DNA from: Branchiostoma floridae | Lineage: Eukaryota; Chordata; Leptocardii; Amphioxiformes; Branchiostomatidae | Direction of reading: 5' to 3' | DNA length: 64,000 nt | Assembly (NCBI RefSeq): GCF_000003815.2 | Contig: NC_049995.1 | Coordinates: forward strand, 15,042,444-15,106,443 | Shown here: positions 10,856 through 62,743 of the stretch, piece after piece | Position numbering within the stretch: position 1 is the stretch's first letter | Layout: each line of letters opens with the position of its first letter | Notes under the pieces: model-generated | Databases searched by the model: none | What the model saw: the letters and a program-made list of their open reading frames with translations, nothing else | Told to the model about the DNA's origin: nothing | Translations under genes and position numbers: made by a program

Positions 10856-13800
10856 ATGGCAGACATGGCAAGAGCGCCACTTCCGTCAGCGAACGGAGAG
10901 CGAACTACAGTCAACTGGCACGACCATCAGGTCACAGCGCTGAAGGTAAGACGAGAGAAGAGAAATGCGAGCCACATGATATGTATGCCGAAAGAGAAAT
11001 TTATGATTCACGTTTCAAATTAGCTTATTGGATTAAAATGTTTTTGTTTTATTCTCACATTTCTAAACCACTTGCAGTTAGCCTTCAGTCTTGACCTTGC
11101 ATTAATGATTTTAAAAAAAAAGTTTCCGTAATCAAACTGTACATGTGAAGTACGGTGTGGTGATTTTCATCTTCGTCCCATATTGTTCTATGACATGATT
11201 GTTTACGTAGTTTTGGAGCTACTTTCTATATTCCAGGTTGTTTTGTAGACTTGTAAACTAACCAATTATGATAGGTTAACTTTTTCTTTGCCATCTTTGA
11301 CATCATCGAGGAGGAAAAAGGGGGAAATATATATGTGTACATGGGCGCTGCCCTTGTCAAAATGCTACTTATCCTAATGGCACAACCAGAGAGTACTTAC
11401 TCCCAACGTTTCAGTGTCCGTCAGACACCATCATCAGGGTTAGAATGGCTGGATACGATTCTCGCTGCTACTTATAGCCGATGTAGGTGGCGCTGCAGCA
11501 GTTAGGATGCTGTCCCAAATGTGACTCAGTTTGTATCCCCCCTCGCCTCTGTCTGACAGACACCGAAACGTTAGTAGTAAGTACTTCCTGGTTGTGCCTA
11601 AAGAACCTTACTATATGAATAAAATTGCTACTTATCCTAATGATTAATACGGTGACTTTTTGCTTTCCCCACAGCCGGACCCGCCCGAGTGCCCGCCCGT
11701 GAAGCTGGTGTGGTGTGGGGACATCAGTGGGGAGGTGGGCGTGATGGGCTCATGGGACGGCTGGAGCAAAGTCTGGAAACTTAACAGAAGGTTAGAGGAG
11801 TAAAGTAGACCCTTGTCTACTGTATATAGCTTATAGACAAAACTTGTTCAGCTCTTGGAATAAGCCTTCCTCATGCGAAAACGGTGAAAGTCAGCACATA
11901 GCAAATATTTCCTTTAACTAGTCGAATTGCCAAAAAAGGAATGGAGTTTGTGGTGTCTTGTAGAAGTTTTCTCTATGGATGGATGGAATAAGGAAGTAAC
12001 GGAAGATTCTGTTGTTCCAGTGAGAAGGGAGAGTACAGCGTGGCGCTGAAGATCCCCTGTGGTCAGCACGAGTACAAGTTCCTGGTCAACAACACCTGGT
12101 TTCACGACGAGACCAAGGTAAAGATATCAATAGCATTGAGTCACGATAAGTTGTTTTCTTGTATTTCTCGTGGAAACTAGACAAATTGTTGTTGACATCG
12201 GGTAATATCTATGATAACTGGCTTCCTACCCTCTTATACTTAGATAGTGATAAAAGATTATATTAGTGATATTTATTACGGAAACTGATTTTAGAGTTAA
12301 ATCAGAATAATCCAGCTACCGTGAGAACTACTACCTGTCAGAACCGTAAGAGAAGAATGCATGTAAAGCTATTTTAAGGGAAATAAAATATATCATAATT
12401 ATGCAAATGAAAGAATAAAATCCAAAGATTCTCACTCCCTTTCTTGGCCCGCTCTCCTCCATAGCCGACTGTATCCAACTCGTTTGGGACCCTGAACAAC
12501 CTCGTCAACGTAGTCAAACTTTCCAATGGTCAAGCGAAAGCCGGCATCAATGGGGCCCATAAGAAGTCTATCCCCGACGATATCCCAAACAAAACGAACA
12601 AGCCCCTTAAACCATCCGAACCGACTCTTCCAAACAAAACAGCCAACGAAAGCTTAGATGGTTACAAACAGAAGGCAACAACCGCCACCACCGCTACCAC
12701 CACAACGCCCCAAATCCAGGAAATTTGCAAGCTTGAGACAGCCAAATTAAAAGAAAGCTGCAAAACGAAGACGACAACCGTCACCAGCAACAACGTGACA
12801 GGCCCCCAAATCCCCCAGGAGATTCGCAAGCCTGAGGAGGTTAGCTTTGGTGATACTGGATTCGGTCAGCACGCCAAGCCTACAAGCAATGGTCCGGCCG
12901 ACAGCGTTCAGGGGAAAGGAGAAGTCTCCAATAAAGAGCCCATGCTACAGACGTGCCCAGTGCCGAAGACCACCGCCAGCCGAGCTTCTCGTCCAGTAGT
13001 CCCACCCAAACCTGGGAATTCGACGACAGCCACTCCTTCATCAGCAGTTAATCCAGACCCGCTACTCACCACTAAGGCGACATCTAAAGATGTCTGTGTT
13101 GTGGAACCAGTGCAACAGAAGTGTCCGCAGTCACAGACGACCGCTTACCGGGTTCCTCCAGCTAAATCCCTACCTAAAGCTCCGACGAAGGCAACAACCA
13201 CAGCTCCTCCACAGAACGCCAGAGCTCGTCCCGAGGTCCCACCAAAGCGTACAGCAGATAAAACAGGCAGGCCTGAAGTTGGAACTGTTGGAGGTACAAG
13301 AAATCCCGAAGCAGCACCGCCAACAGCAAGAAATACATTTAAACAGCCTCCCGCGACGAAGCCAAAACCCACCCAGAAACGTGTGGTGACTTCACAAGCT
13401 GCATCCAGGACGGCGGCTAAAACTGTGGACGGCAAGGGGCCCTCCTCACAGTCTGGCCAGGCAGAGACTCGGTATTGTACCCTTAGTCCTTTGATATTAG
13501 TGGGATCGTCTTTTAATCAAGAAGTTCAGTAGAAGCCGTTTAATCGCACACCCAATCTACCAGCGTATTTCGTGCAATTGTCCGACGTGTGCAATAGTGC
13601 GACGTTGCCCAGTTGGACTTTTCGTCGTGCAGATAAGCTACGAGGGGCATTCAATAAGTAATGCCCCTGACCCACTGCCAGTTGTCTGATCTAGATGAAA
13701 TGTTGCATGTGTAATGAGTCATATCTCTATGGATTATGTTGCAAAAAAACAGCTCTGAACTAATTGTGGTTACTGATTTACTGGTGTTTGAACTGAGTCA

Positions 13801-14599: not shown

Positions 14600-15542
14600 A
14601 GGTTTAATATAGGATATAGAGGTAGGAACAGATGATAATATAATATTTCTTCTGACTGACTTTTTAACAATTAGTCATTCTTAGATAACTTTGCTATATG
14701 AACAATAGAACATGATTGACTCATCTCTTGTTTCATGTCTTTTTCTCCAGATCTGGAAAAACATGATGCAACGGAGACTTCGACAATGACCTAAGAAGAT
14801 GCATGTAAATGCTCTATTACCATTGGTCATGGTGTCACGGTCGATCCTAATATTAAGAAGCTATGGATCGTACCAAAAAAACGAACAAACTAAAAAGAAA
14901 CAGAAATTAAATGGAAAAGTTTATGAAAGCAACCGTTACAATATCATTAATGACAGACAATTTCATGATCAATTGAAGTGCACAATTTGCCACACTTAGA
15001 ATACTTTAAATGAAATAGAAGTCTTAAATAATCTATTATTTGCTGCTTAAGAGCAGGTAGTTGTTGATTGTGGTTTAAACAGTATGTATGATAATTCTTA
15101 AGCATCTAGATGATACAAAATCAGACATCAGATAAGTCAAAGCTATGCATAAATACATGCTGCAATGAAATAGGATGTTGTAGATGATGATACGCTGCTA
15201 CGTGTAAATATGCTGCTACTACGTATGATTGTAACTATGACATTGATAGTATAGCTACTTTAAGCTGCTATAAATGATATATCATAATAACTGCCACGAC
15301 CGATTCCCTTAGAGTTGTTGCTTGTATTTAAAATATAAGGGATGAACAAAATGCTTGTAGCTGAACGTTCTAAACATTGTAGACGACAATCAAAGCAGGT
15401 AACTTGTTCAGTACATAATCACATGGGGTATAAGAGAGACTTCACCATTGAAAAGGGTTGCCCTATATGTGTGTTTTTTTGTGTACTTCTGTGTGGCTGC
15501 CATTTCCAACATACACCAAGATTAATGTGCCAATTCACATAA

Positions 15543-20389: not shown

Positions 20390-20832
20390 ATGGCGGACCG
20401 AACAAAGGAATGTAGCCCTCTGACGGCCGAGAGGTCAAGTACAGCTGTCAAGGTAGGACTGAAATAGAAGAGTTATTCTATGTATGTAAATAAACGACTT
20501 AACTGCCATGTTTCCCCTTTCCCCTGCATTGCATCACATGTACATAAGGTACTCTGTCATTGTCAAATATACATGCATTACCAGTTACAATCGTTGCGCA
20601 ATAAACTTGACTTGACTTAACTATGAGGTCAAATACGCAGTATGATTTTTATCAGTATTCTTTAAAAGCATGTGTCCAAAGTTAAAATCTTAAAGCTTGA
20701 AAAAGAGATGAAAACAAATATGATAACTTTAATCACTCCACCCCAAGGGATTGATGTCCTGTTTTGTATTCTCTCTCTGTCTCCCCTCTCTCTCTCTATT
20801 TATCTCCCTCGCTGTCTCTCTCTCTCTCTGTA

Positions 20833-20869
<37 letters not shown>

Positions 20870-23800
20870 TTGTGTGTGTGTTGTGTGTGTGTGTGTGTGT
20901 GTGTGCTGTGTGTGTGCGCGTATGTGTTTGTGTCTGAGTTTGTGTATTTTTGCCTTGTAGTTTTGTACGTTCTGTCAGATGGCGCTTACTGTAGGAATTG
21001 GTGAAGTCTGTAATCTCAGATCGCCTTGTCGTCTAGATGCTGGCATAGTACGCTAAAGAAAACCTTAATAATTGCTTTTGTCCATAGGCCGGGGCAGAGG
21101 ACAGCGTGCCTGTGACCTTTGTGCTGAGTTCGAAAGGAAGGACCAGCGGTGACGTGGTCATTCTGGGGTCATGGGACGACTGGAGTCAGGCACGGAAACT
21201 AGAAAATAAGTAAGTAGGACTCTAGTCTAGGGCTAAGCGAGTTTATCAAGCAAGCTTTTGTAAGCCAAGATTTTGACAAAATCGCCTCTGCAGTTCCAGA
21301 ACAAGTCGCTAGGGGTCCAAACCATATTTGCTATATCACAAGGCCACAGCATGCCCAGGTCAAAATATACCAAAAATAAGACTTAAAGTTCTGTTGCAAT
21401 ATCAAGGTCGCATGTCTGGTATTTTAAAATCTTTTGATTTTGTTGCAATTATGGGAATGTTTGTCTGAGTAATATTTATGTAAATTTCTGATATGTGTAA
21501 AATTGAAACCCGGAAAACCCTGCACAAAAATCCACGGATGATCATATATGTGAATGAGCTTTTTGATGTTTGTATGTTGTATTTAATGCTTTTATGTTTA
21601 GTTTGGTATGTGTTAGTTTAATATTGTATATGTAAACATTGTCATTGCAAGTTCTGATGTTTTTGTGAGTTTGTTAGTGCTTAGATTGTGGTATCTTTAT
21701 GTATATGTGATGTGTTTATACTTGTGATTTCTTGTCTTGTATTTTTATATTTGTCCTTTTGTTGCAAATGGGAATGTTTGAGTAATATTTCTGTAAATTT
21801 GTGATATGTGTAAAATTGAAACCAGGGAAGGAAAACCCTGCACAGAAACCCAGGGATGACACCCCTGCACAGAAGTCCTGGGGAAGAAACCCCAGCACAA
21901 AAAATCCAGGGGGGATAAAACACCCCTGTAAAAAAAGTCCTAGGGAGCAAACCCTAGCCAAAAAAAGCCAGTGGGAATGGCCCCTGCAACAATATGTAAA
22001 TGTGTTATAGTATATAGTACTGCATATGTCTAGATGATGGAGTAAATAGTAAGACACTAGTGTGTAAAATATGGTAAGGGAATGCTCGTGTAAATATTCT
22101 ATAATGATTGTGTTTAGTTTTAAGTGATTATCTTTGAATGTTTTGTAATTTATAACTTGTGAATAAAATGTGAGAAAAAAAATATCAAGGTCGCATACCA
22201 GGGGGCCCAAAATTGACTTTGCCCTTTGTCTTCCCAACAGCTACTCACATACCTGATATCATCGTAATCTATTTAGAGGTTTTTGAGTTCTGCTAACTAC
22301 AAATATCGGGAAACACAAACACAAAACACACACAGACACCCACACACACAGCCTCACCCCAAACAATATCTCCATATTTCAGACATATAATCAGACTGAT
22401 TGATCCTTACTATTATCTTGCAGGGAGGACACGTTGGAAGCGTGTCTTGACTTACCCAGTGGAGACTATGAGTATAAATTCAAGATGGGCAAAACCTGGT
22501 TCTGCGACACGACAAAGGTATAGTGCACAGAAAGTTAACTTTCTCAACTAGAGTGCTATCCTTCTCTACGAAGGAAAAAGTCAATGCAATCTGTTTCATC
22601 TTAGCTTTGGCACAACCTATAAAGCTAAAAGCATAGGCAGTTTACATGCCGGAACAAGACATGACTATAGTAGCCTTTAACAGGGGGCAGAGGCTGAATA
22701 TTGAAGATGCCAACACTGATGTTTGAGAGACTTGTGCGCATTATAATGGACCCCAAACCAGTGTTTTTTTAACGAAGGGATTTGTGTTCTTTAGTTTCAC
22801 CGTATCTATCCCCCACCTCCGTGTTCTACATTATTCATTCACTCTAGAATATCCCATATCAAAGTATTATTTTCTATACAAAATTCACCTATTGAGAAGT
22901 TCCTCTTTACCTCCCTCCCCCACAGCCAGTAGTGCCGAACGTGTTTGGAACACTCAACAACTACATTGAAGTAGTCAAAGAGACGGATGGAGGCTCAGCT
23001 ACAAGTTTTCCCGAGACGGTTCAAGTCACGCATCTTGACCCTGAAATACTGCAGCAGGCACTTGCCAAAGTCTCGGAGGAGACACAAACGAGTGAGGTTG
23101 AAATTGAGAAAACTGACGAACGCAGCACTGCAGGAGGAGACGACAAGAATTCAACAACTTTTGTTGAAGAGCAGACGCCGATCCAAGAAGACAAGGTCTC
23201 GGAGGAGAAAGAAACGAGCAAAGATGGAGTTGAGAAAACTGATGAAAGCACTATTGCAGAATGTGTCAGGATCTCAGCAACATGTGTTGAAGAGAAGACG
23301 ATCCAAGAAAACAAGGTCTCGGAAGAAAAAGAAGCGCCAGAAGATAAAATTGAGACAACTGATGAAAGTGGCATTGCAGAAAAAGACGACAAGATCTCTC
23401 CAACATGTTCTGAAGAGCAGACGATCCAAGAAGACACGGAGCCAACAGCGACAGTCGCACCACAGCAGTTTGTCATACAAGATTCACTGATGAGCATTTG
23501 TATGACGCCTGACATGCCTCCTCCAGTCATTTCAAAGCAGGCGACACATGAAGACAAGGATTTCTCCGAGGAAACAGTTTCACAGGGACGAAAAAGAGAC
23601 GAGCCTACTGTCTGTGTCTGTAGAAAGCCAGTGCCGATTCCGGTCAGACCAGTTCCACAGGAGACTACTTCAAATGATGTCATCGAGTCTGAATCCGAGG
23701 CCATCACTGAAACAGCGTCACAAGATGAAACAGCTGCAGAGGGTTCTGAAGACACGAGTCAAAAGTCAAACGAAACAGCACAACAACATGAAGAAGTAGT

Positions 23801-26800
23801 AAAGGAAGAACAACCCGAGTTGACTATGGAAACAAGAGTTGAGAACTTTGATCAAACTGCTGTTAGCGTGGTCGAAAGGCTTGAAGAAAAGGATGACATT
23901 AAAACAACAGCCCAAGAGACAACCCAAATGGTTGAAACAATCACTCCAGATGTCGAAAAGGAGTCGAAAGAAAGGGTTACACCAGATAGCGTTGAGAAAG
24001 AAGAGGACAATACTGTGCCGGAGGCAATTATGATAAAAGACACAACAGGGAAAGGAGTTGCCTTTGTGGAAAAGGAGGCAAAACCAGACGAAAGAGCTGA
24101 AGATGAGGAAACTGTTTCACGGGAAGGAAAAACAGACGAGCCTGTGATCTGTATCTGTTATAAACCAACTCCAGTCACACTAGTTCTATCACCAGAGACT
24201 ACATCAGAAGATGCCATCGAGCCCAAATCCGTGGCCACCACTGACACAACATCACCAGATAAAACAGTAGGAGATATTGCTGAAGGCACTGATAAAAAGC
24301 CAGACGAAACAGCACAACAACAAGAAGTAAAGGTGGTGGAAGAACAACCTGAGTCGTCTGTGGACGAAGAAGATGGGAAGCCAGTTGAACAGGCTGCAGA
24401 TGACAATGTTCAGAAGGTAGAAAGCGTAGAAGTTTCCATGGAAACACCATTACGAGATGAAGAGGTTGAAATAATTGATGAGAAAAGAGAAGAAGTTGTC
24501 CAAGACATCAAAGAGAAGCCAGATCAGAAGGTTTCCAATGAGGAAACACCTCAGAACGAAGCAACTGAGAGGCCTGACCTGGACGTTAGTGACAAATCAG
24601 AGGAAAAGACTTCTTCTCAGACAACACATCCAGACCAAGCAGCTGACGAGGACGTCATAGACATTGTAGTGCAGTCGGTAGACGAAACAGTTGTTAAAGC
24701 TGCCCCAGCCGCGGGTGAGACGTTTGAAGAGAATATTCATACCGAAGTCACACTACCAGATGAAACGATTAAAACAACTGTGCCATGTACTGTGGCTGCA
24801 CCGGAAGAGATAGATGAAACAAATGTTTGGCCACCACAAGAGATAACTATTCAAGAAGCTGTCACGAATCTTGAAACTGCAGTCATAACAGAATCGCCTA
24901 CACAAGACAAAGACGATACTGCAGCAGACTTTGTCGCTGCAACAGACGAATTGGCTGCGTCCGAAATCCAGCGACGAGTGACAGATTCAGTTCAAGAAGT
25001 TTCCCCACAAATCGCTGAAAAGGTAGAAGATCAGGACGCTACAGCTACAAAAAAAGATGAGGAATCCTCCGAAATACCTCAGTCAGAGGGAACCACTCAT
25101 GACACTGTGTTGGTAACGTCTGAAGACGTATATGAGAAAGGTCATTCTGAAATATCTCCAACTAAGGAACCAGTTGAAGTAATTGTCTTAGACACTGTTG
25201 AAAAATTGGACGACACTACCCAGACGGAAACCCCACCGGCACTGCCAACTGGAGTAGCAGACACTGCTGAGAAAGTTACCTCCAAAACAGCACCAACGTT
25301 TGAACCTACACAGAAGGATGCCCCTGACATAGCTGAAGAGGTGAAGGTTATAACGGTAAAGATTACGAAGGAACCACAGACAGGCAAACCATTTAAGGCG
25401 GCTGCTTTACAAAGCAAAACGTATGCTCAGGCTGTCAAGGACAGTTTCCCCAAAGTTGAGAAGACCGTACAGGAAAACGGAGACATGTCAGATGTGGGCG
25501 AAACTCACAAGGAGACACCACCAAAAGACAAGTCGGTCGATGAGACTGTGCCAGAAAATGTGGAACTACCAAAAGAGGAAGTTACTGAAATGCTGCCATC
25601 AGAAAAAGTCGAGGAGAAAGTGTCAGAAAAGGAGGAGCTAACAAAAGAAGAAATCCACATCGATGCACCATCCGAAGACATAATCATTAAGACGATAGTA
25701 GAGCCACAAAGCGTGGAGTTTGGAGAAGAGAAAGTTCACACAGAAACTCCACCACCAGACAAGCCAGTTGAGAGGGTAGTATCAGAAAAGACGGAAGAAC
25801 CTAAAATGGAAATCCACACTGAAACTCCACCAGAAGACAAAACGCCTGAAAACACTGTACAACAGCAACAAGTAGAAGTGGTGGAAGAAGAGAAAGAGGA
25901 GGTACAAGTCGTAGTACAAGAGAAAGTACAAACAGAAACACTATCACCAGACAAGACAGTTGAGACGAAAGTATCAGAAAAGATGGAAGGACTGGAAGAG
26001 GAAGTCAGCATTGAAACGCCACCAGAAGACAAAACGGTAAAAGAGACTGTAAAGCCACAAGTATCAGAAGTGGTAGAAGAGACAATTCAGACAGAAGCTC
26101 CAGATAAGCCAGTTGACGAGAAAGTATCAGAAAAGGTTGAGGAAGCAAAAGAGGAAATCCACACTGAAGCACCACCAGAAGACAAAATAATTATGACGAC
26201 TGTACAGCCACAAAACGTGGAAGTGGTAAAAGAGACAATTCACACAGAAACTCCACCACCAGACAAACCAGTTGACGAGAAAGTATCAGAAAAGGTGGAG
26301 GTACCAAAAGAGGAAATCCACACTGAAACACCACCAGAAGACAAAACGGTGGAAACGACTGTACAGACACATAAGGTGGAGGTGTCAGAAGATACAGTTC
26401 ACACAAAAACACAACCACCAGACAAGCCAGTTGAGAAGGTGTCAGAAACGGTGGAAGTAACAAAAGAGGAAGTCCACATTGAAGCGTCAACAGAAAACGA
26501 CAAACCAGTTGAAAAGATTGTACAACCACAACAAGTATCAGAAGTGTCAGAGAGGCAAGTTCATACAGAAACTACACAACCAGACAAACCAGTTGACGAT
26601 AAAGTATCAGAAAAGGTGGAGATACCAAAAGAGGAAATCCACACTGAAACACCACCAGAAGACAAAACGGTGGAAACGACTGTACAGACACAAGAGGTGG
26701 AGGTGTCAGAAGATACAGTTCACACAGAAACTTCACCGCCCAAAAAAACAGTTGAGATAATAGTATCAGAAAAGAAGAAGGTAGTAAAAGAGGAAGTCCA

Positions 26801-42600: not shown

Positions 42601-44754
42601 AACGACTTTACAAAAGCTGCAACGTTACAAGTAACAATAGAGGACGTTGTCGATGATATGGTCGCCATGGAAGACAAAAAGCCTGTTTCAAACAGAGCGC
42701 ATCAGACAGATGAGATAGATTCGTCAATGGCAACTCTACAGGATGAGGATGACCTTGCAGCCATTAACCCTCAAACCACCGTAGCTTTTTTGTGACGTAG
42801 ATTACCGTATGGGGTCAAAACTGACCCCAAAACGTTTTGTACAAATACAGTTTTTTGTGTGAATCTTTTTGTGATTTGTATATATGTATAGTTTCATTAA
42901 TCTATGTGGGACAATCTGACATGATTAGGTGAGAATACTTCTAGCTCATTATCATAATTTATGCAAAAGATCATGAGGACCACATTTTTCACCAACGCTA
43001 TTCAGACCGGGAAGGAGGTTTTTGATGCCCGTACAAGCTTCAATGCCATATAGTGCCTGAATGGCTTATGATAGGGCCACCAAACTTGGTAACTTTTTAG
43101 AAAATGTTGATAGCAAACATTTTCAGGGAACAAAGTATGTTCATCATTTTTCATGTTGCCATGGCAACGGAGTTCTGACAGAAATATTTATTACGAAATT
43201 CTCTAATTTTGTATCAAACATTTTAGTTTTAAGGTTTTCTTGGCAAATAACAATTGTTTATCACATCTTATAAATTCAACATAAATTTCAGGACTCAATA
43301 TTCATAATTTATGCTAATTTGATTACGTCATCAGTCAAAATCCAAGATGGCGGCCGATATTACCTAGATGACGTCATAATGTCGTCATATGACATGAAAA
43401 TGGCACAAAAGTTGGTACAATAATTTTGGCTTACATGTACATCATTCTCTGAAAATTTCGTGATCCTACAAGAAGTAGTTTAGGTGTGGGTCGCAAAAGT
43501 TTGTTTAAATAAACGCTGGGGTCAGTTTTGACCCCACTGGACCATGTATAAACTTTCGAGGATAACTTAATCAACAATGAGTCAATCTCGGTAAAAACGT
43601 ATAAGAAGTTAATGGACATACATACAAACAAACTCCTGGAAGGAAATTTGTTTTCGACAAGAAATGACATAATGGCACACATTGATATGTGCCTGGGGTC
43701 AGTTTTGACCCCATACGGTGGTTTGAGGGTTAATGACATTATGGAAGAGTCAAAAGAGAATATTACCGCTGAATTGAAACCGGCGGAGGACCCAACGTCA
43801 ACCGAGTCGGAGAGCAATGGTTGGAGGGTTGTCGGTAATTCAGAAAACGAAGACACCACCAAAGCACCAATATCCGTTGAACCTAAAAGCGTTAAAACAG
43901 CTATCCAAGAGGAGGCTAAAATGTTTGAAGAGCTTTCTATTACAGAAACGTCTCACGACGAAACAGTTATGGCTACCCAAGACATTGCTGACAAGATTCA
44001 AGATACAGCTATTTCTGAAACAGTCACAGAAGACACAGCAACTGAGAAAGATGAAATGTCCGAAGAGAGTTCTATTACAAAAACGGACGAAACAATTATG
44101 GCTACCCAAGACATTACTGACAAGATTCAAGATACAGCTATTTGTGAACCAGTCACAGAAGACACAACAACGGAGAAAGATGAAATGTTTGACAAGAGTT
44201 CTATTACAAAAACGGACGAAACAGTTATGGCGACCCAAGACATTGCTGACAAGATTCAAGAACCAACTATCTCCGAAACACCTCCACCAGACAAAACAAC
44301 CGAGAAAGATGCAATTTTAGAAGCGATTTCTATGAACGAAGTGGATTCTACTACAAGCGAAATAACAGCCGCTGCCGAAACTGCGGAGGTTGAAGAGGCC
44401 GTCACTGGGATGTCTGAAGAAATGGCTAAAGTTACAACATCATCTGCAGTCGAGATGTCGACGAAATCTTTATCAGAACATGCCGATACTACTACAAGCG
44501 TAGCCGAAACGACAGCGGTCGGGGGTACTGAAGTGAGGCTGGTGTGGAAGGGAGAGGTCAGAGGAGATGTATTTGTGCAAGGGTCATGGGACGGATGGAG
44601 ACAATCATATAAACTAAACAAGAGGTAATGTGTTGTCTGTATTTTAGTCTCTATCTCTCTCTCCCTTCCTGCTTCCTCTCTCTCTCTCTCTGTGTCTCTC
44701 CCTCTCTATCTATCTATCTATCTATATCTATCTATCTATCTATCTATCTATATA

Positions 44755-44785
<31 letters not shown>

Positions 44786-44788
44786 ATC

Positions 44789-44857
<69 letters not shown>

Positions 44858-47800
44858 ATCTATCTATTTATCTAACTATATCTATCTATCTATCTATATC
44901 TATTTATCTATCTATATCTATCTATCTATCTATATCTATCTATCTATCTATCTATATCTATCTATATCTATCTATGTATCTATATCTATCTATCTATCTA
45001 TCTATCTATCCAAGAATTGATCGTGTCTATTGTCTCTTTTATTGACGGAAGACTGGTTAACTCAAAATGTGGTGTGCAGGCCCAAATAAGAATTATACAG
45101 TCGCAGGAGAATCATGAAAAGGTAACAATGTCGGTCCATGTGTTTCTTCTGTAGTGTAAACGGAGAGCACAGTGTGACCCTGACACTACCGGTGGGTCTC
45201 CACGAGTACAAGTTCCGAACTGGGGACAGCCGGTTCTATGACGAGACAAAGGTATTTTTATAAGACAATTAAACAATTCCGAAAATAGTTTCATCAGGTT
45301 GGTAGAATATAGGATGAAGGAGAATTCTTATTTCACAACCAGTGGGTACTTACATTGCTGACGTTTCGATGTCTCTCAGATACCTTCGTCAGAGCTTCTC
45401 AAAAGGTTCTCAGAAGCTGTGGCGAAGGTGTCTGAGAGACATCGAAACGTCAGCAATATAAGTCCCCACTGGTTGTGTAATAAGAATTCTCATTCACCCA
45501 AAACAGTTATGGGTCTATTAGCTTTTCTATTTCTTACCGCATCTATTATTCATTCGCATCCAGCTATTTATCTATATTTATCAATCTGTACTCTCTCTCC
45601 CTCTTTCTCTCTCAGAAAGAGGGGGATCGGGAAATAGATAAAAGAGAGGGCAGATAGATACATGTACTAGATATATTTCTTTCTTTGTTTCTTTCAGCCG
45701 GCTATGCTAAACGTGTTTGTGACACTAAATAACATACTTCAAGTGCAAGCACTACCAGAAAGAGCAATGAAAGTCGTACCAAACATTGAAAACAAGTCAA
45801 ACGAAGAACTTGTCAACGAAGCAGCACAACCAATGAAGGCACCTCCGCTTGAGGCTCTACCTGATGTTCATGAAAAAGTGAAAAGTAGCAATTTCAATGA
45901 AACTACAGAAGTTACCGAAACAGATGAGCAAACCGTTGCTAACATGATGAAAAAACTCATTACAACAACAGCAACAGTAAACGAATCAGTTGAAGGGGTC
46001 GAAAAGCCAAAAGAGAAAACCACACTACCAGACAAAACAGACGAAAAGATGGCCCATGATATAATGGAGACCTTAGAACAAATGGAACATGTTGTAACAA
46101 CGATAACTACAGTCGAAGCAGCTGGAAGTGTTTCCTCAGACACAGATCAGATGTTGAAAGTGATCAGCCATACAGACAAAACGCTGCCAGACGAAATGGA
46201 CGGGGGTGTTATAGCATGCAAAGATGACACGCCACGAGAGAATATTTGCACCAAACTAACACCGGACGAGACTACTGTCCGAACAGAGCAGCCTGAACCA
46301 AAGACTCTCACCGAAACAACGTCTGCAGTCGAGGCAGCTGAAGAGGTTCTCCACGATACAGAAAAAGCGTCAGAAGAGCTTACCTCCTACACAACACTGC
46401 AGGACGAAATAGAGAAGAGTTCTGAACCTTTCGATAGTGAGAAATCAGGAGAGAAAAGTTGCCCTGAAACACCAACAGACGGAGCACCTAGTGACGCGAC
46501 TGACACTGACAACATTATCAAGACGGAAGATGGATCTTCCATTGAAATACCAGCACCAGACGTATCCGTTGAGATGACACCCGCACACGAGATGCAGAGT
46601 GCTGTGGATCATGCTGCTGCAGAAACCTCACAAGACAAAACGCAAGACGAGACAGTTTCTCAAAAAGAGGAAACGTCTTACGATAACGATGACTCTACAG
46701 AACCACTAGAAGAAAAGCTAGAGAATACAACAGTAGATTCCTTAAATCACAATACGAAAGATGAAACACCACCCTCTAACGAAACAGTCGACGAGGCACC
46801 AACTGACAAAGACAAGAAGCTAGAGGATGCAGCACAAAAGGAGACACATGTCTCTAACGAAACGGCCAGCAATTCACACGAACAGATGGCGGACAAGATA
46901 GCAGATACAGCTCTCACTCAAACACCATATCCAGAACTTAGAGTGGAGAAGCTGAGAGATACGGCTACCATTGAAGGACTACCAGAGAAAACGTGGGTGA
47001 GGATAGCTCTGCACGACTATGCTCACATCAAGCTTCTGTGGAAGGGAGAAGGCAACGGTGGTGATCTTTACGTACAGGGGTCATGGGACGGGTGGAGACG
47101 GTCTCACAAGCTGAAGAGGGGGTAAGATAACGTATTTGCTTTTGTATTGAATGCTTGAGTTTTCATAAACACTGTTTTTGTATACTGAGTTATCTGGGTG
47201 ACAATGTTTTTATCGTTGTAGCCGACACAAGCATGTGATCTTGCATTTTTAGTAGACAAAAACAAAAACAACTTTAGACAAAACAAGTAAAATTAACTTG
47301 TTGTTGATGAAAAAAAATAACTATCTCAATAGGAACAATAAAACAACACTCTTAAGAAACTAAGGGGCAAAGTCTAACTTTGCCCTTAACAACATGCTCA
47401 TATTACCAAATGCACACGCACACTACGTTAACTAGCGAGAAATACACGATATTTTCCCAGCCTTTACTTACCGTTCAACTATGTTCCTTGAATGTGTTTT
47501 CTATCCCGTAGAGAGTACAGCGTGACACTAAAGCTACCTACCGGTCTACACGAGTACAAGTTCCGGATCGGGAACAACTGGTTTCACGACAACTCGAAGG
47601 TGAGACCATCTGAGTAAACACGTCTAACTTGACTACGAGCCAGTCACATTCTCCAGAACGACGCGGCTGCTATTTGTTTTCACCAACCATCTGTTTCAAA
47701 AATGTTTAAAAAGACCCAAACTTATTGCAAGGGCGACGGTGTAACCGTTACTAGACAAAAATGTTGGTTAGCACACTTTGTCATCATAGAAAGCGATGTA

Positions 47801-48208
47801 AACTAGTCATTTGTTACATAGAACCCTTTACCATTGTTATGTATAAGCAACCACGTAGATATTAGTCTTGATGTTCTGTACATGTATTACACCCGAACTT
47901 GCCATACCCGTACAATTGTTGCGCAATAAAGATTGATTGATTGATTGATTGATTGATTGTAAACGCTTTAAACCCCTCTATCAAAAGAAATACATAATAT
48001 NNNNNNNNNNNNNNNNNNNNNNNNNNNNNNNNNNNNNNNNNNNNNNNNNNNNNNNNNNNNNNNNNNNNNNNNNNNNNNNNNNNNNNNNNNNNNNNNNNNN
48101 CTGACGTTACGTTCCATTACTTCTTTTCTTTATTGTTCTCTGCAGACGACAGTGGCCAACTGTTTTAACACGCTGAACAACGTGATCAACGTTACCATGA
48201 CTACCTGA
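36644..48208 (+). CDS. gene C: five CBM48 modules with LIR-bearing linkers, interrupted by a transposon
   Basis: Exons 36644-36703 (MAEATEKSRPL), 37099-37214, 37690-37789, 38209-39860, 40050-40146, 40277-41766, 42028-42121, 42361-44624 (holding a 966-bp insertion), 45155-45251, 45698-47121, 47512-47599 and 48146-48208 splice in phase to about 2192 residues without the insertion. Module signatures in order: 1 GSWDDW/YEYKY/RWFCD/FGTHNN; 2 GSWDGW/HEYKF/NWFHD/FRTLNN; 3 GSWDGW/HEYKF/SWFHD/FRTLNN; 4 GSWDGW/HEYKF/SRFYD/FVTLNN; 5 GSWDGW/HEYKF/NWFHD/FNTLNN. Linkers of 300-450 residues are acidic and Thr-rich. The first three carry W-x-V-V motifs (39301, 40676, 43821). Read literally, translation stops at 42793-42795 inside the insertion. 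Expected role: multivalent glycogen binding. There is an assembly gap in the last intron. Confidence 0.78.
42768..43729. mobile_element. piggyBac-like MITE inserted in a coding exon of gene C
   Basis: TTAA lies on both sides (42764-42767 and 43730-43733). The inverted ends are CCCTCAAACCACCGTA and TACGGTGGTTTGAGGG, followed by GGGGTCAAAACTGACCCC-type palindromes. The 962-bp element has no transposase. Its interior (TTGCCATGGCAAC, CAAGATGGCGG, TGACGTCATAATG) matches the larger intronic element at 55237-56816. Confidence 0.85.
43960..44300 (+). repeat. 38-40-residue linker repeats (gene C, third linker)
   Basis: Three tandem copies of TVMATQDIADKIQDTAISE plus T-EKDEM--ESSITKTDE start near 43966, 44092 and 44218. 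Looser copies occur in the earlier linkers at about 39430-39640 and 40800-41010, so the linker itself was duplicated with the modules. Confidence 0.75.
44690..45010 (+). repeat. (TCTA)n microsatellite
   Basis: About 320 bp of TCTA units with occasional TATC and TTTA variants, in the intron between the 'a' and 'b' exons of gene C module 4. Shorter CT-rich and (GATA)-type tracts sit at the same position in the introns at 39890 and 41800, so the array grew in a duplicated intron. Confidence 0.95.
45285..45490. mobile_element. fold-back MITE copy (CACAACCA family)
   Basis: GTTTCATCAGGTTGGTAGAA, then CACAACCAGTGGGTACTTAC...GACGTTTCGATGTCTCTCAG, is mirrored by GAGAGACATCGAAACGTCAG and CCACTGGTTGTG. 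Intronic in gene C. Confidence 0.7.
47860..47965 (+). mobile_element. retroposon 3' end with (TTGA)n tail
   Basis: ATTGTTGCGCAATAAAGATT is followed by TTGATTGA repeats; compare 20500-20620. Intronic in gene C. Confidence 0.5.
48001..48100. other. assembly gap
   Basis: Exactly 100 N, in the last intron of gene C between the 'b' and 'c' exons of module 5. The real length is unknown, so an additional module could be hidden here. Confidence 0.99.
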
Positions 48209-53569: not shown

Positions 53570-53671
53570 AGAAAAGACGACGGATACAGGAAAATCATCA
53601 CGCCCTCTACCGACTAAAGGTGCGGGTGCAGTAAACCAAACAAGCTCGCCCAAACGGACACCACAACCAAG
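53570..53671 (+). pseudogene. degenerate leader-peptide exon of gene D
   Basis: Nucleotides resemble the ATG exon of gene C (AAATCACGCCCTCTACCG versus AAATCATCACGCCCTCTACC, and GTGCAGTAAA). The frame from its ATG stops at CGACTAA, and the exon ends before a GTAGGG donor at 53672. It may survive as untranslated leader. Confidence 0.5.
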
Positions 53672-54135: not shown

Positions 54136-54351
54136 GTTAGCTGTCCAATGCCACCAGCCTACTTCGCTGGTATAGTATCTTGCTATATTTGTCCAATTTC
54201 TATTACTTTCCTGACGACCTGTGGAGCCTGGTAGAGGCTTATACTTCTATGCGGACCTCAAACTGACTTGAATATATACGTACGTGTGAACCTACCTTTT
54301 CCAGTTACTTACAACCCTGATGCAGCTGATCTTCTCTCTCTCCAGAACAAG

Positions 54352-57300
54352 ATGGCAGACTGTGTTCCCGTGAAGTTTTCGCTGAGGGGGAAAATAAGTG
54401 GAGACGTTTTTGTTCTGGGTTCCTGGGACGGATGGAGTCAGGCTACCAAACTAGACAAAAGGTGAGGCCTTCAAAGATTCCCTCGCTTAGACCATCATGA
54501 GGTTTGAGTTCTTATCCAGTTTGCTTAATGGTTACCTGTATGTAGACTAGACCTCTGACCCACAAGTATCAAACCTAAATACAAAGTTCAACTTATGTTA
54601 AGTTCTACTCAATAAGGATTTTGTCCTTAGGATTAATATTATTGTTTCATTTGAAGTATACGTTAACCATTTGAGTTTGTTAACGTTGTATGTATTCTAT
54701 GAGAAGTGTAAATGTACGAATGTGTTGGCACCCAATATCAGCTAAGCTGTATGAGTCTGCCATGCATTGCATTGCATTGCATTTGTGATTTCAATAAATT
54801 GAATCAAATTATATTTCAGCGATGAAACTCTAGAGAACAGCACGCGGCTAAGTCTACCATGCGGCTACTATGAGTACAAGTTTAAGATAGGCGACCACTG
54901 GATCCACGACAATACAAAGGTAAATTTTGGGTATATATTAGCTCTCAATTAGCCTTAAAGAGTTAAGTATATTTGAATGCTAGATGCATTGTGCATTGCT
55001 ACTACTTAACTACCACGTGCACATTGTATTTTACTTTATAATGTTAACATAACCTGTAGCTACTAAAACAAACACAGCTTCAATTTGTGGATGTAGCTGG
55101 CAATGATATATATTGAGGTAGTTACATGAAATATAATTTGAGCTACACAAGCCTTGAAATAACAAAACTGATTTGATATTCAGGACAGATGGAAAAAGTT
55201 ATACTTACGAAGATGATGGCCCAATTCATGCCTTCGTCCTATCCAGACTGGGGGGGGGGGGGGGGTGCTAAAAGTGCCTGCGCCAACTTTGACCTCCTAT
55301 ACCTCCCAAACGGCTTGTGCTAGAACAACCAAACTTAGTGAGTTTTCCTAAAATACTGTTGGCAACAATTTTTAAAATTTTTTTGATTTTTTCTGATTTT
55401 TCGTGTTGCCATGGCAACTGGTTTCTGAAAAGCAAATTTGACAAAAACCACTAATTTTGGTTTAAACAATGGGATTTTAAGATTTTCTTGCTAAACTTAA
55501 CTTCTTTTCATATATCTTTAATATCTAACACATCTTAGTTAAACATTTATAATTAAATATTCATAAATTATGCTAATGAGATGACGTAATTGCTCAAAAT
55601 CCAAGATGGACGACAATATCATGATTTAAAGTATAACAAACTTATTTTCACTCAGATTTCATTACTACGTGGTATTTTCTTACAGAAAACATTCATGTGA
55701 ACGTTTTTAATCCATTTCCATGGGGTTTTAGCGTTATATGTTGAAAAAAATGTATCTTGAAAAATTTAAGGTTCATAATCCAAGATGGCGGATAGCTGAA
55801 CTACAGATGACGTCATTCTATGACGTCATTTTGACGTCGTTGCGTCGGCTTTTGACAACAGAAGTCTTATAAGGTTTGAGTTTGAGTTTTTTTTAGGATT
55901 TGGGGCCGATTTGAATGTCTCTGAGAAAAGCACTAACGCTTCTCAAAACACCGTTTTTCGGATAATTCAATGTTTCCGATGGAAAAGGGTGTGTTGTCGC
56001 TGACCGACAGACTCATTTGACATTTTCTGTAGAAATGTTATTTTTGGTAAAAACCATCAAAAATATATGCTTTTCATAAAAAAATTGCTAATTTGGGGCC
56101 ATTTTTTACAGGCCGCTACACATGAATTTTCCTGGGATAATGACTCATATGGCAATGAAGGTCAAGACTTCTTCTGTATACTGAGTAAAAAGGAAAAAAG
56201 TTATCCGATACGTTTTCCGCAAGCTCCGATGGCGCTAAAACACCCAAAATGCACATAGAACGCATGATCTGGGTAATCAGGCGACGAAACGCTTTACCGC
56301 TATCGCGCGCACTAATACCAGGAAGTGTTCGCCGCACGATCAAATCTCCGACACCATAAAACGCTACGAACAACAAGCATTTGGAGAACTATAAAAGATT
56401 ATAGACTTTTAAAGCGATAGCCGAAAAATCTAGAGCTAAAACTATGGAGACAACCTCTGATTTGCGTCTTATTCTTAGGGACTATTTAGATATCTGGACA
56501 ATTGAAATTCCGAACCGGAACCATAACACTTAAATATTGATAATAAACCTTTCTTGGTAACTTTTTGAGTGAGATATTCAAGTATTATGGGAATTCCCCG
56601 TTTTAGCCGAAAATATCAATTAATGACGTCATAATTACGTCATATGACGTCATAATGATATAAAAATTTCAGAAATTATAAAACTCGATGAGCATAACCC
56701 CCCTGCAAATTTGGTGATCGTACAGTAAGCCGTTTTGAAAATAGGAAGGGGGGGTCGAATGAGCCCCCCCCCCCCCCCAGGCCAGGGAAGGCCCAAAAAG
56801 CCCAGTCTGGATAGGGTTAAAATGTGCAGCATTCACCCTACCGAGACACTACATTTATGCTACATTTATACATCTGTATTTCACCCTGCTTACAGCCGAC
56901 GGTGGTGAACAAGTTTCGGACACTAAACAACTTCGTCCACGTCATGAAGCCACCCGATATCGCCATCAGTGACGCTAGCGACCAGCCTGAAATTACTGTT
57001 GATTTCAACCCTATTTTACAAGCCACAGAGGAACCTCTGCCATTGATTCCAAAGCTATACGAAGCTGCACCAAAAGAAAATCAAGATGGCGACGAAGAGT
57101 CTGCTTTCAAGGTAGAACCCCATAAAGGCGTAGAGGTCAAATTAGAACCACAAATCGAAGATGTGGTTGACATGCCACAGGAAAGCATTTTAGATTTGGA
57201 ACCAGTTTCTTAAATAGGAATGAGACCTTTCGGATCAGGCCAGCAAAGTGTCGAAGAGGCGCCAGAACCACCGACGAGTGTGACACCAACTAGCGATATC

Positions 57301-60300
57301 ACAATAGACGCTGTTACAGCAAAGGTACAAACTGGTGAGGAAGTCGAAACGACGTCGTTACGGGTAGCAGACGAAATTGTAAAGGAAACAGAGCAAGTCA
57401 AAGATACAGTTTTCGTACCTGTAGTTGAAAGTTCAGACGAGACGTCAGTCAAAGTATCTCTTGTTGAAGACGAACATGGGAATGCTAAAGTAGACAATAT
57501 TGAAGCATCTGAAACGGCGGCGTTACAGATAGCAGACGAAATCGTCAAGGAAACAGAAGAAGTCAAAGATACAGTTGACGTACCTGTAACTGAACGTCAA
57601 GACGAGACGTCAGTCAAAGTATCGATTGTTGAAGACGAACATGGCGCTGCTGAAGTAGAAAATGTTGAAACACCTTTTGAAACGACGTCGTTACAGGTAG
57701 CAGACGACGTCGCGAAGGAAACAGAGCAAGTCAAAGATACTGTTGAAGTACCTGTACTAACTGGACGTCAAGACGAGACGTCAATCAAAGTATCGCTTGT
57801 TGAAGACGAACATGGTGCTGCTGAAGTAGGAAATGTTGAAACACCTGAAACGACGGCGTTACAGGTATCAGGCGAAACCGTGAAGGAAACAGAGCAAGTC
57901 AAAGATACAGTTGACGTACCTGTAATTGAAAGTCCAGAAGAGACGTCAATCAAAGTATCACTGGTTGAAGACGAACATGGTGCGGCTGAAGTAGAAAATG
58001 TTGAAACACCTTTTGAAACGACGTCGTTACAGGTATCAGCCGAAATCGTGAAAACAGAACAAGTCAAGGATGCAGTTGAAATACCTGTAATTGAAAGTCC
58101 AGACGAGGCGTCGACGCCAGTCAAAGCATCGCTTGTTGAAGACGAACATGGTGCTGCAGAAGTAGACAATGTTGAAACACCTTCTGAACAAGAGAAAAGC
58201 AGTTCAGACGCCCGAAACATTGCAGAAAGGGTCTCTGACAAATCAGTTCATCAGGAAGAGATAGCTGCTGACGAAAACGAAGTTAAGCTGCAGAAAGAAA
58301 TAGAAAACGCCGCCGTTCACGAAGCGACCAAGATTGAGGGAGGCTCCATTAAAACCGAACGGCAACTTCAACAAGAAATTGCTGATTATCTTGCAAGAGA
58401 AAACGACAACGTGCCAGAAATGATTGCCACCAAAGAAACAGTTGACCAGAAAGATAATGCCAGCAATGATGTTCAAGACACCATCGAAAAGGTAGCAGAC
58501 GACAAAATAGTGCCTCAAGAAGAACATCGTGACGAGTCAGTAGAACGTGACCCGAGGACAGTTCCAGACGACGAAACACTTTCTCTAGAAAAGAGACACA
58601 CTGTACCAGAAACAAAGGAGTCTGTTAGTGAAAACCAAGACAAAACGCCCATAAGTGCTATCAAGGCAGACGGCGAGACAGGTCCTGAACTTGTTCAACA
58701 TCAAACGGAGAAATACGACCACAAGGTTATTCAAGACATCCCCGAGTCAAAGGACGATTGTGCATCTGATGAAGTCACTAAAGTACTCGAGGAAAGGACG
58801 CTCCAGGAAGAGGAGAAGGCACCTATCCTGCCTCAGTCAGAACCGGTGAGTGAAACTGTCCAACCAGTGCTGCAAGAACAGCAGCCCGAAGAGACTACTT
58901 TAGAAACCTTAGACAAACACACCAACAAAGCAGTGCCACTAGAGGAGACGCCCATAAAGACTGCCGAAGGTGGTCTTGAAATAGAAGCATTCGAGCCTGT
59001 AGTTGAAAGGCAGTCTCTAGACGAGATACCCATCGAAGCTGAGCCGAACGTCCAGGAGAAAGTAGCACAGACTGTGTCTAAAGAAACTGAAAAACACGAC
59101 AATGTTACTCAAGACATCCCTGAGATAAAGGAAGATACAACAACTGATGAGGTACCACCACAGAAAAAAGGAGTTGAAACTGACAAAGAACAGGAAAAGG
59201 AAGCAACAAGCCTAGACAATGGCAGTGATAAAACGAATCTTCAGCAAGGGAATCAGAAACTTGACGAAACGGCTCCTCCAAAAGAGGCAGCCAACCATGT
59301 CGAAACCATGGTTGATGATGTAGTCAAGGAAATTACTAAAACAGCCATTCAAGAAGCTGGCAAAACAAGTCCTCAGCAAGAGACAGTTGAAAGCGCTGCC
59401 ATGCAAGACCTGGAGGAGAAAACTCAAGAAAAACTCACCAAAGAGCCAGCTAAGCACGAAATACCTAATGAGGCGGAAGTCGAAGTTACTCCACATACCA
59501 CAGGTCAGGAAGAGAAAGCCGATATGGCTGAAACAGAGAAAGATAAAGCTGTCGAGGATGTCACGGGCGAGGTAAAGGGGGCAGACAAAGAAGCTGCTCT
59601 TCCTCAAGTCCATACCAAAGCTGATGTAACCGACTATAACATGACAGAGGTCTTGAAGGAAAATTTACAAGACGCAAGGAATGACAAGAAGTCTTCTGCA
59701 GTTGACATTGAAAAGACAACCCAAAATACAGAAGTGGAAGTTACTCCTTCTAGGGTAGATGCCAATGCTGTCCTAACCGACAAGATGGAGGCTTTGACTG
59801 AAATACTACACGAAAAAGAAAAAGATGAAAAACCAGTCGTCGTTGACGTTGGAAAGGCAACCCAACTTGAGCCGGACGCACCGACGTATGCTCCTGATAT
59901 AACAGACTTAGATAAAACCACGAAAAAGACTACGATTGAAACAAAAGTAAAACAAGAAGACGATGATGGCCTAGAAAGCATGCATAAAGAAGAAGTTCTT
60001 CCGGAAGATGAGACTACCAAAGATGTAGTAAGCAACCTTGAAAAAGAAGTAGAAAAGCCTTCGCCCAAAGCACCAGTTCAGGAGAAAATGTCTGATACGG
60101 TAGTCATAGAAAAGGTGGAAAAGGAAAAAGACAAGGCTTTGGGAGAATCGCCTCAGAAGGTAGACAAAGCAATGAAGGAAGCAGACAAAATTGTACCGGT
60201 AGATGGTGGTAAGGAGGTTCAGGACAGGGTGGGCTTGGGAGACCTTGAAACATCTCCTACAAAAGAAATAGGTGAACATGTTATATTCGACAAGGCTGTC

Positions 60301-62743
60301 AGCGACGAATACAAAGATGCTATCGAAGAAAAGACCAGTGTTGCTGTCTCGGAAGAGCAGAAAGGTGACAAGACCGAGGTTCTTATCGAAACAAAACCTG
60401 TGGAAGAAGCGACTAGTAAGGTAATTCTAGACAACCTAGGGGCTGATATAAAACCACAGGAAGAAGTTGCTGTCAAAGAGCAAACGATAGCCAAGCCTGT
60501 CACGGGGGTAGAGGAAGAACCAAGTAATCAGATACAAGTAGAAGACAACTCTGAAAAACGCGAGCCACCATCAGAAACGACGAAGATTTCTCAAGAACTA
60601 GAAGACGTCAAATCAAGAACAACCACTAAAGAAAGAAAAGAGTTACCGACGGCTGGTGGCTCTGAAATACCTATCCTTCTGTTGACAGAGAAACAAGAGA
60701 AGCCACTTAAACCAGAATCCAAGAAGGACACGAAGAAAAAGGAAGACGCAAAGTCACGTCTTCCATTCTGGAAAAAGGACAAGACTTCAGCTGAGCAGGA
60801 GAAGTCTACTCCTGAGAAGAAGCCTACAAGGGAAGTACAGACAACAAAGAAAGAAGATCAGCCAAAACCTCAAACTACATCATCGAAGGAGGAGGCGAAG
60901 AAGAAAGAAGGTCCAACGTCGCGCCTTTCTTTCTTGAAGAAGAAGAAGAAAGAAGAACCTACGGTTCAGAAGCAAACTGAGAAGTCCAAACCTGAGACGG
61001 AGAAACCTTCACCCGAAGAACCCACGACTAAGACGGAGAAAGCAAAAACAAGGTACAACGAGCTGGACTCAAATACCCCTTTTTGTTTCCTATTGCTATC
61101 CGTCATTTTTGTCACTCTTTGGTGGTTTGTGCTTATTTATTCGCTCGTTTACTAGGGTGTTAGAAGATGTTACATAAACAGAAGATAAATTGTTATGCAA
61201 ATGTTTTTAGAACACGACAAATGGTAATGCAAAATGAATTAGCATGGTAAATTGTACTTATGTTTGCATCAATGAATGATTATATGAAAGCTTTCGCCAC
61301 AACATAACTAGTAATTATCATAAATTGAAATAATTTTTGATTTCAGTAAGCCCTATTGGCATGCTTTTGGGATATTCTAAACGTTTTACAAGCGCATTTG
61401 CTATGCATATATGATAATGATACGGGTATATGCGCTATATCAATGAAAAATCATTTATTGAACAACCCTTAGGACATTTGTTGAATAATTAACTTAAAAG
61501 TCAACAAGGCAGAGATCGAGTGTTGTAAGAGTTAAAGAGCGTTTTACTTGTAATAATAAGCTGTTTTAGAAATCTGTGATAAAGTTTGATCAGATTCTTT
61601 GAAAATAATAAAAAAGTAAGCAATGTTGGCATGTCTTGTTTTCTCGAGTATTTAATGTAAGTTGTATGGATATGAGTAAACTGAATACAATAAACGTGGG
61701 GCACTAGGCAAATAATGATAGCACTTCTAGCCTCCAAATTTTGAATTTGTAATCATGAATAAAGAGAAGAGCTAACCTATTTACCACCAAGATTTTTCTC
61801 CATATGAATTGTGATTTTTAACATCTGAAGAATGCTGGTTTCAAGAAGATTACAACTAACGTGTTGAAACTGGGATGATTTTTTCGGTCTTCAAGAAAGT
61901 CTTAAACAGAATTTTTAAGGTCAGTAATTTTTTTATTTTTTTGTCATGTAGCTCGTAGCCAAGAAGCATTTGTCCCAAAACATTGCAAGGGTATCTATTA
62001 CAAGAAAATCTGAGCCAACAGAAACGTTTTGTGAGCCCAGCATCAGATCAAGCCACCGTGAATGACCAGGGCCTCTTGTCGGGAATTTCTTATATCATTC
62101 AAAACATCTCCACGGCTTATTTATTGCTTTCATATCAGTTTGATAGATGTAATGCGTATTCATGTTCCGATTATATAAATGTGGTTGAGTTAATTGTAAC
62201 CATTTGAAATTCGAATAACCACCCTTCTCTGCAATCTTCAGGACCTTTTAACCCTTGATTTGAAAACTACGTCTGACCCAGTCTTAACTCAACTTTTACT
62301 CAGGGGTTCACCCACTTTACCAACAGAAACAAATACCCATATTATGCAGCTTACACAGACATACATACTCCAGACCAACCGTTTTCAAATTGATTGAATA
62401 TTTTCCTTTAAAATCTTGTATGTATATATATATTTATTTGTTGGATCCGTCACCCCACTGCTGTACTACTATTTAATTTGATCTCACATTGTTTTGTCCT
62501 TTGTTTATTTTATTTTCAAATGTCCTAGTGGTAATGTTAATATTAGCTTTGCTAGAGTGCACTTACCACTGTGTCCTATATGTGTACCAATAAAAAAAAA
62601 AAGAATAAACACCCCCCCCCCCCCATAATGATGATGTAACAATGATGATGATCAGCATGGACGGGTTTTCATTTTTCTCCAGCAATGACGACACCAAGCC
62701 GCAAGGTTTCATGGGAATATTGCGGTGCTGTAGGTGCTTCTGA
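54352..62743 (+). CDS. gene D: single CBM48 module with very long disordered tail and membrane-type end
   Basis: Exons 54346-54461 (ATG at 54352, MADCVPVKFSL), 54820-54919, 56896-61052 and 62683-62743 splice in phase. The module has VFVLGSWDGW, YYEYKF, HWIHD and FRTLNN, with the glycan-contact Trp, Lys, Thr and Asn kept. A tail of about 1350 residues follows: five 55-residue repeats, then Glu/Lys-rich sequence, then two basic-hydrophobic SRL-x-F motifs. The last exon gives SNDDTKPQGFMGILRCCRCF. An in-frame TAA at 57211-57213 interrupts the giant exon. Read literally the product has 175 residues (module plus a short tail), and the rest would need read-through, a short splice or a corrected base. 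The start is the first ATG in the 'a' exon because the ancestral leader exon is broken. Confidence 0.68.
55237..56816. mobile_element. piggyBac-like MITE in a gene D intron
   Basis: The inverted ends CCTATCCAGACTGGG and CCCAGTCTGGATAGG are separated by 1.58 kb, with a G run near the left end and a C run near the right. TTAA follows the right end; the left flank is TTCG, probably a mutated TTAA. No transposase. The interior shares TTGCCATGGCAAC, AAATTATGCTAAT and CAAGATGG with 42768-43729. Confidence 0.7.
57346..58188 (+). repeat. five tandem 55-56-residue repeats in the gene D tail
   Basis: Units start at 57346, 57511, 57679, 57847 and 58015 (165-168 bp). The consensus reads ETTSLQVADEIVKETEQVKD, then TV-VPVIES-DETS-KVS, then LVEDEHGAAEVENVETP. 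The repeats are highly alike, so the expansion is recent. The function of the unit is unknown. Confidence 0.9.
61053..62682 (+). other. last intron of gene D, usable as an alternative terminal exon
   Basis: If not spliced, the frame continues for 33 codons to TAG at 61153. Residues encoded by 61081-61152 are 24 uninterrupted, mostly hydrophobic residues (FCFLLLSVIF... to YSLVY). AATAAA signals at 61689 and 61758 could end such a transcript. The remainder includes a retroposon-like A-tailed stretch at 62430-62610 and a C run near 62612. Confidence 0.5.

Follow-up and report, generated by a model that had tools for sequence, protein, structure and literature searches.

A stretch of 64,000 nucleotides of the Branchiostoma floridae genome (NCBI RefSeq assembly GCF_000003815.2, contig NC_049995.1, positions 15,042,444 to 15,106,443 of the forward strand; hereafter the window, in which positions are counted from its first letter) contains four adjacent genes, here numbered 1 to 4, that encode modules of the carbohydrate-binding family CBM48. 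Animal CBM48 is known chiefly from AMPK-beta and branching enzyme, where it occurs as a single module, and the locus raises the question of what is done by proteins that repeat the module along a long chain. On balance, their sequences point to these proteins probably being cytosolic glycogen-binding scaffolds, made from copied AMPK-beta-type CBM48 modules without the kinase-assembly domain. We base the role as scaffolds or tethers on the glycan-binding face that the modules have kept, on the fact that no AMPK assembly parts were found, and on the long charged chains between and behind the modules.

Ten CBM48 modules in four tandem genes

A first-pass annotation of this stretch, made from its letters without database searches, had described ten CBM48-type modules across four adjacent genes. 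This description holds: four tandem plus-strand genes carry ten complete modules, of which one is in gene 1, three are in gene 2, five are in gene 3 and one is in gene 4. In the hidden Markov model search that the annotation had named as a check, all ten pass the cut-off of Pfam AMPK1_CBM (PF16561), scoring 54.8-74.4 bits against a cut-off of 26.8 (E 1e-14 to 9e-21; 8.5e-21 for the gene 1 module). The best solved chain for a profile of the ten modules is AMPK-beta-2 (1.9e-17); the plant glucan phosphatase LSF1 is matched at 1.8e-7, and plant and yeast relatives score far lower than AMPK-beta-2. CBM_20 stays below its cut-off, reaching E 0.027 in one of the ten modules, and a Pfam scan of the modules, the seven long linker exons and the whole gene 1 protein gave no CBM21 match. 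These comparisons identify the modules as AMPK-beta-type CBM48.

The signatures that had been listed for the modules are likewise present, with GSWD(G/D)W, [EQ]YK and NN each found in all ten (as QYK in gene 2 module 3). When the modules are aligned with human beta-2, the residues W100, K126, T148 and N150, the last of which we take to be a glycan contact, are conserved in every module and W133 is kept in nine, and all five are present in nine of the ten modules. The single module that had been excepted from this conservation is gene 3 module 4, in which Arg is aligned with AMPK W133 (W133R). PMC2642990 names W100, K126, W133, L146 and T148 as glycogen contacts, and reports that mutating the contact residues it tested markedly cuts glycogen binding. 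Among themselves, the window modules are 40-79% identical.

Each module is encoded in three exon parts, A, B and C, with GT-AG junctions in all ten modules. In every case the donor of exon A is in phase 2 and lies 44 nucleotides past the first base of the GSWD motif, exon B is 88-100 nucleotides long, and the junction between exons B and C is in phase 0. A single unbroken exon spans part C and the next part A in five of the six successive module pairs (gene 2 modules 1-2 and 2-3; gene 3 modules 1-2, 2-3 and 4-5), so the joining of these modules can be read from the DNA alone; in the sixth pair, gene 3 modules 3-4, the frame is broken by a 962-bp element. PMC4967905 warns that apparent domain novelty in lancelets has been ascribed to gene prediction errors, and reading the modules from unbroken exons answers this warning for five of the six pairs. 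The seven long linker frames without stops extend over 355 to 1531 codons, compared with 168 for the longest plus-strand stop-free run in base shuffles of the window (n=30).

When a module protein was used as a query against the genome (513.4 Mb in 431 contigs), 25 matches were obtained at E <= 10, with 16 of them below 0.001. The 22 matches on this contig all lie inside the window: each of the ten modules is hit in both its exon A and its exon B, and a degenerate exon A and an exon C make up the remainder. The other three are on contigs C230 and C11. The position at which the cluster had been said to begin, 10856, is the ATG of gene 1. Its proposed end at 62743 is without support, the last coding evidence being the stop codon at 61153-61155. 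The annotation had also missed two extra exon copies in gene 2 (a degenerate eleventh exon A and a second exon C), the insert in gene 3 and a TAA in gene 4.

Ancestry of the modules and dispersed relatives

The ordinary AMPK-beta of this genome is located at G000:C1:16084309-16084739, and its CBM matches human beta-2 at 8.4e-39. This CBM has two introns whose sites and phases (2, 0) are identical to those of the window modules, so the modules and AMPK-beta have a common ancestry. A PF16561 search of the genome retrieved AMPK-beta alone (2 matches), presumably because single exons score too low, and protein queries were used instead. With these we identified three dispersed relatives of one module each, on C230 and C11 (with a window-module query) and on C6 (with the C230 relative as query); the C6 query of the genome gave no further clear gene. 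The module of each dispersed relative scores above the PF16561 cut-off and shows the same two intron phases; the C230 module has R at the K126 position. On these matches, the genome contains at least seven genes of this family, not counting AMPK-beta.

In a tree of the modules, both AMPK-beta rows are separated from the 13 other modules at 100/100, while the relations among these 13 are poorly resolved (2 of 12 inner branches fully supported). As the tree is unrooted, we only infer the direction of descent: AMPK-beta is present across eukaryotes (PMC4995730), which makes it the probable donor of the modules.

The C11 relative (L006 4147-6837) has one CBM48 module, then a long array of 8-residue repeats (KDGVPSAT-like; Cornifin-like in Pfam), and a basic, Cys-containing C-terminus, RCGCFRGLWKALFSRKKK. 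The C6 relative (L014 5590-8084) has one CBM48 module and a long AAPAVPASAAEVPEDN repeat array, and its basic aromatic C-terminus, KFWKRKSS, is similar to SRLPFWKK near the end of gene 4. Weak genome matches were also seen at C7:12654982 (E 5.4), C11:13018289 (E 0.19) and C7:10597240 (E 4.6).

Proposed role and its alternatives

The known partner domains of CBM48 had been described as absent from these genes, which is borne out for the parts that were scanned with Pfam: the seven long linker exons and the whole gene 1 protein yielded neither an AMPK-beta C-terminal domain nor an enzyme domain, and in the seven exons no further Pfam family exceeds its cut-off. The net charge is -145 and -101 for two parts of gene 3 and -152 for the long open reading frame of gene 4, and the periods of the larger linker repeat arrays are multiples of three. 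Of the long disordered linkers that had been proposed, the length stands, and the linkers are of low complexity; disorder is judged from composition only. For gene 3 modules 2-5, compared in all six pairings, Nei-Gojobori omega is 0.14-0.44, and one linker-block pair gives 0.24; among four further module pairs, omega is 0.09-0.39 in three, and the synonymous divergence (dS) is saturated in one. These values indicate that substitutions in the tested pairs are under purifying selection.

If the proteins are glycogen scaffolds, every module would hold on to a glucan chain with the residues that serve AMPK-beta for this purpose, namely two Trp, one Lys, one Thr and one Asn. The proteins of genes 2 and 3, with several modules along a long acidic chain, would then bridge glucan chains or particles and so cluster glycogen, or keep linker-bound partners on it. 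The gene 4 protein, with its module at the N-terminus, a long spacer and a hydrophobic tail at the C-terminus, would fasten glycogen to a membrane, like PPP1R3A in muscle. Glycogen binding, clustering, disorder, the membrane anchor and partner proteins are properties that we infer. The earlier description of a multivalent scaffold fits genes 2 and 3, which have several modules per polypeptide, but not genes 1 and 4 or the three dispersed relatives, which have one. If intact, gene 3 would encode up to five modules on a chain of about 2,200 residues.

Several observations weigh against a scaffold role. The L146 position is Phe in all ten modules, the window modules are 25-37% identical to the genome's own AMPK-beta CBM, and the gene 1 module is also above the cut-off of the related bacterial family X25_BaPul_like (31.4 vs 27 bits), although its AMPK1_CBM score of 74.4 is far higher. 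The omega values are rough in several pairs, for which dS exceeds 1.3. Hydrophobic ends are not rare among the open reading frames of the window, since 31 of 748 reach a hydropathy of 2.0 and 83 of 748 reach 1.6. Lastly, gene 3 and gene 4 are interrupted in this assembly, by the insert and the TAA respectively, so that either gene may be damaged in this haplotype.

Comparison with known systems shows in which respects the architecture is familiar. AMPK beta (PRKAB1/2) is similar in its CBM48 type, its intron positions and phases and most of its glycan-contact residues. However, it has one module, an MG- N-terminus (myristoylation) and a C-terminal domain that binds alpha and gamma, whereas the window genes have MAD or MAE starts, up to five modules and, in the scanned parts, no complex domain that we could find. 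The plant proteins PTST and FLO6 are non-enzymatic, starch-targeting CBM48 proteins with coiled coils, and gene 3 has one candidate coiled coil. In PTST, a CBM48 and a protein-binding segment bring a partner enzyme to the starch granule (PMC4339375), and PTST is the best tested CBM48 precedent among those considered. Its one CBM48 is C-terminal and it is a chloroplast protein, whereas the modules of the window proteins begin at the N-terminus and can be several.

The predicted layout of gene 4 resembles that of PPP1R3A (GM/RGL) in having an N-terminal glycogen module, a long tail and a hydrophobic segment near the C-terminus. The module of PPP1R3A is a CBM21, and the protein has a PP1-binding site, whereas gene 4 has a CBM48 and is without an RVxF match. 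A short hydrophobic segment in the PPP1R3A tail is reported to mediate its sarcoplasmic reticulum association (PMC2214798). Four separate CBM21 loci are present in the genome. We rejected PP1 targeting as a general role for the window genes, as the RVxF regular expression has no match in genes 1, 3 and 4, and one loose match, KGVAF, in gene 2.

More tentatively, the genes could represent a family of chordate multi-CBM48 proteins that are not enzymes, crosslink granules of glycogen and include a PPP1R3A-like membrane-anchored member. Such a family would be a system of separate evolutionary origin that positions and clusters glycogen, derived from an AMPK-beta-type module; we see this wider proposal as possible rather than probable. 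The CBM48 module is known, but the architecture is new. Such proteins are not described among the matches listed in the open-licence literature (titles and abstract starts), with subscription papers and the protein databases of other animals lying outside the search. If the proposal is true, it would show that dedicated multivalent scaffolds without an enzyme or kinase part can control glycogen placement. The cluster also shows the reuse of an exon triplet of AMPK-beta type as a portable unit. The genes with one, three and five modules would provide a natural series for the effect of valency on glycogen clustering.

STBD1, another glycogen-binding protein, has its membrane anchor at the N-terminus. 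It is non-enzymatic, has an Atg8-interacting site in addition to this anchor (PMC7648618) and, unlike the window genes, contains one CBM20. The window proteins could be autophagy receptors for glycogen of this kind, in which CBM48 holds glycogen while Atg8 proteins are recruited to short motifs in the linkers of gene 3, but we consider this unlikely. The STBD1 site uses W188 and V191 (PMC7648618), and a repeated block in three gene 3 linkers contains GW[ITR]VV, giving three weak candidate Atg8-interacting sites: GWIVV at 39298..39312, GWTVV at 40673-40687 and GWRVV at 43819-43833, all on the plus strand. None of these three W-x-V-V sites fits a stricter Atg8-type pattern, which instead has three matches elsewhere in gene 3, around DEFETL, EMFEDI and KMFEEL; such short patterns, counted here as raw matches, arise by chance. 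The linkers of genes 1, 2 and 4 have no such site, the sole gene 4 match being in its hydrophobic tail. A receptor role would also be favoured in that none of the three CBM20 loci in the genome was identified as STBD1: the C12 locus (L011) matches laforin (7.2e-17), the C8 locus (L013) matches a glycerophosphodiesterase CBM20 (2z0b, 1.7e-11) and the third lies on C1 (L012). However, this C1 locus has no solved match, and an exon-wise genome search could overlook STBD1.

It is improbable that the proteins are directed at AMPK, as independent beta-CBM copies docking on the alpha kinase lobe and so modulating or localising AMPK, not glycogen. The introns that the modules have in common with AMPK-beta would fit this role, as would a Ser at the exon A/B junction, presumably in register with AMPK-beta Ser108, which is found in five of the ten window modules and in the C11 relative, though not in those on C230 and C6. 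According to PMC4995730, the beta-CBM is seated on the N-lobe of the kinase, and the phosphorylated form of Ser108 stabilises the ADaM cleft. However, the junction Ser is missing from the other five window modules, whereas nearly all modules retain the glycan face, and both the low identity to the genome's own AMPK-beta and the lack of a beta C-terminal domain in the scanned parts argue against docking on the kinase.

We give equally little credence to a decaying or non-functional cluster, in which tandem copies have been partly broken by the insert, the stop and lost exons. The gene 3 insert, the gene 4 TAA, the lost ATG of gene 4 exon 1 and a degenerate exon copy in gene 2 would all be expected in this case, but the splice sites are intact in ten of ten modules, the tested pairs show purifying selection and the open frames are very long, and the two frame-breaking lesions are limited to two of the four genes and may be confined to a single haplotype. 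Finally, structural or other proteins in which a CBM48-like fold binds a ligand other than glycogen are very improbable, for while L146 is replaced by Phe throughout and W133 by Arg in one module, the other contact residues are kept despite the extent to which the modules have diverged from each other and from AMPK-beta.

The individual genes

Gene 1 (10856..13532, plus strand; exons 10856-10945, 11675-11790, 12021-12117 and 12465-13532) encodes 456 amino acids, with one CBM48 module near the N-terminus and a basic, Pro/Thr-rich tail that contains PxxP motifs; the net charge of gene 1 is +21. The first exons of genes 1, 2 and 3 are short (30, 21 and 20 codons) and start with MADM, MADR and MAEA, respectively. 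No signal-like hydrophobic segment was found in genes 1-3, the top hydropathy outside the gene 4 tail being 1.29. Just 3′ of gene 1, at 13792-14124, lies a frame that we take to resemble the N-terminus of a mariner-type transposase. A common 3′ end of genes 1 and 4 ('TRY' ahead of GT) was considered, and tblastn of the two downstream stretches gave nothing convincing.

Gene 2 (20390..29558, plus strand) encodes 1785 amino acids with three CBM48 modules and a net charge of -227 over the whole protein. Its exons are 20390-20452, 21088-21209, 22424-22517, 22926-27487, 27856-27952, 28261-28475, 29014-29110 and 29451-29558. The exon that joins modules 1 and 2 comprises 1520 codons; its product is acidic and consists in part of degenerate tandem repeats. 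Modules 2 and 3 are closely spaced. A partial tandem duplication (28098..28680, plus strand) supplies a second exon C at 28098 and, at about 28560-28660, a degenerate exon A, with copies that are 80-82% identical; the joint frame of modules 2-3 was read with the exon C at 28261, not the duplicate at 28098.

Gene 3 (36644..48208, plus strand) has five CBM48 modules, and one of its linker exons is split by the insert. Its exons 1-6 are 36644-36703, 37099-37214, 37690-37789, 38209-39860, 40050-40146 and 40277-41766, and exons 7-12 are 42028-42121, 42361-44624 (with the insert), 45155-45251, 45698-47121, 47512-47599 and 48146-48208. In this assembly it thus reads as 1347 amino acids (three modules) up to a stop within the insert, followed by 853 amino acids (two modules). 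The 962-bp element (42764..43733, no strand assigned) has inverted ends, CCCTCAAACCACC..., which we take to be piggyBac-like, is flanked by a TTAA target duplication, and contains palindromes of the GGGGTCAAAACTGACCCC type at 42811, 43518 and 43695. An ordinary intron was ruled out by the TTAA and inverted repeat ends and by the flanks, which form one open frame when joined. The candidate coiled coil is in linker 1 (38782..39039, plus strand), and its score on a home-made heptad scale was reached in 1 of 60 shuffles; scores were no better than shuffles for gene 1 (12/60), gene 2 (21/60), the long open reading frame of gene 4 (28/60) and the second part of gene 3 (17/60).

Gene 4 (54346..61155, plus strand) has a single CBM48 module, followed by a long linker that is acidic and repetitive, and a last open reading frame with a hydrophobic end directly before the stop. 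Its exons are 54346-54461, 54820-54919 and 56896-57111 (or up to the TAA at 57211), followed by the open reading frame 57214-61155. A former first exon (53577..53671, plus strand) has ACG at the position aligned with the ATG of genes 1, 2 and 3, and the module could instead start at the ATG at 54352 in exon A, giving MADC. The TAA at 57211 falls between the module and the long frame. There are 164 in-frame GT-AG pairs able to remove it, and among the best 12 of these by crude scores the top intron, 57112-57243, combines a weak donor with a poor pyrimidine tract. The candidate C-terminal membrane anchor (61081..61152, plus strand) is 24 residues long with a best 19-residue mean hydropathy of 2.68, a value reached by 3 of the 748 open reading frame ends in the window, probably including that of gene 4 itself; before the stop, the frame ends in FCFLLLSVIFVTLWWFVLIYSLVY.

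Upstream of the cluster, at 3221-3812, are coding remnants that we take to be TRP-channel-like, with a tandem duplication of 145 bp.

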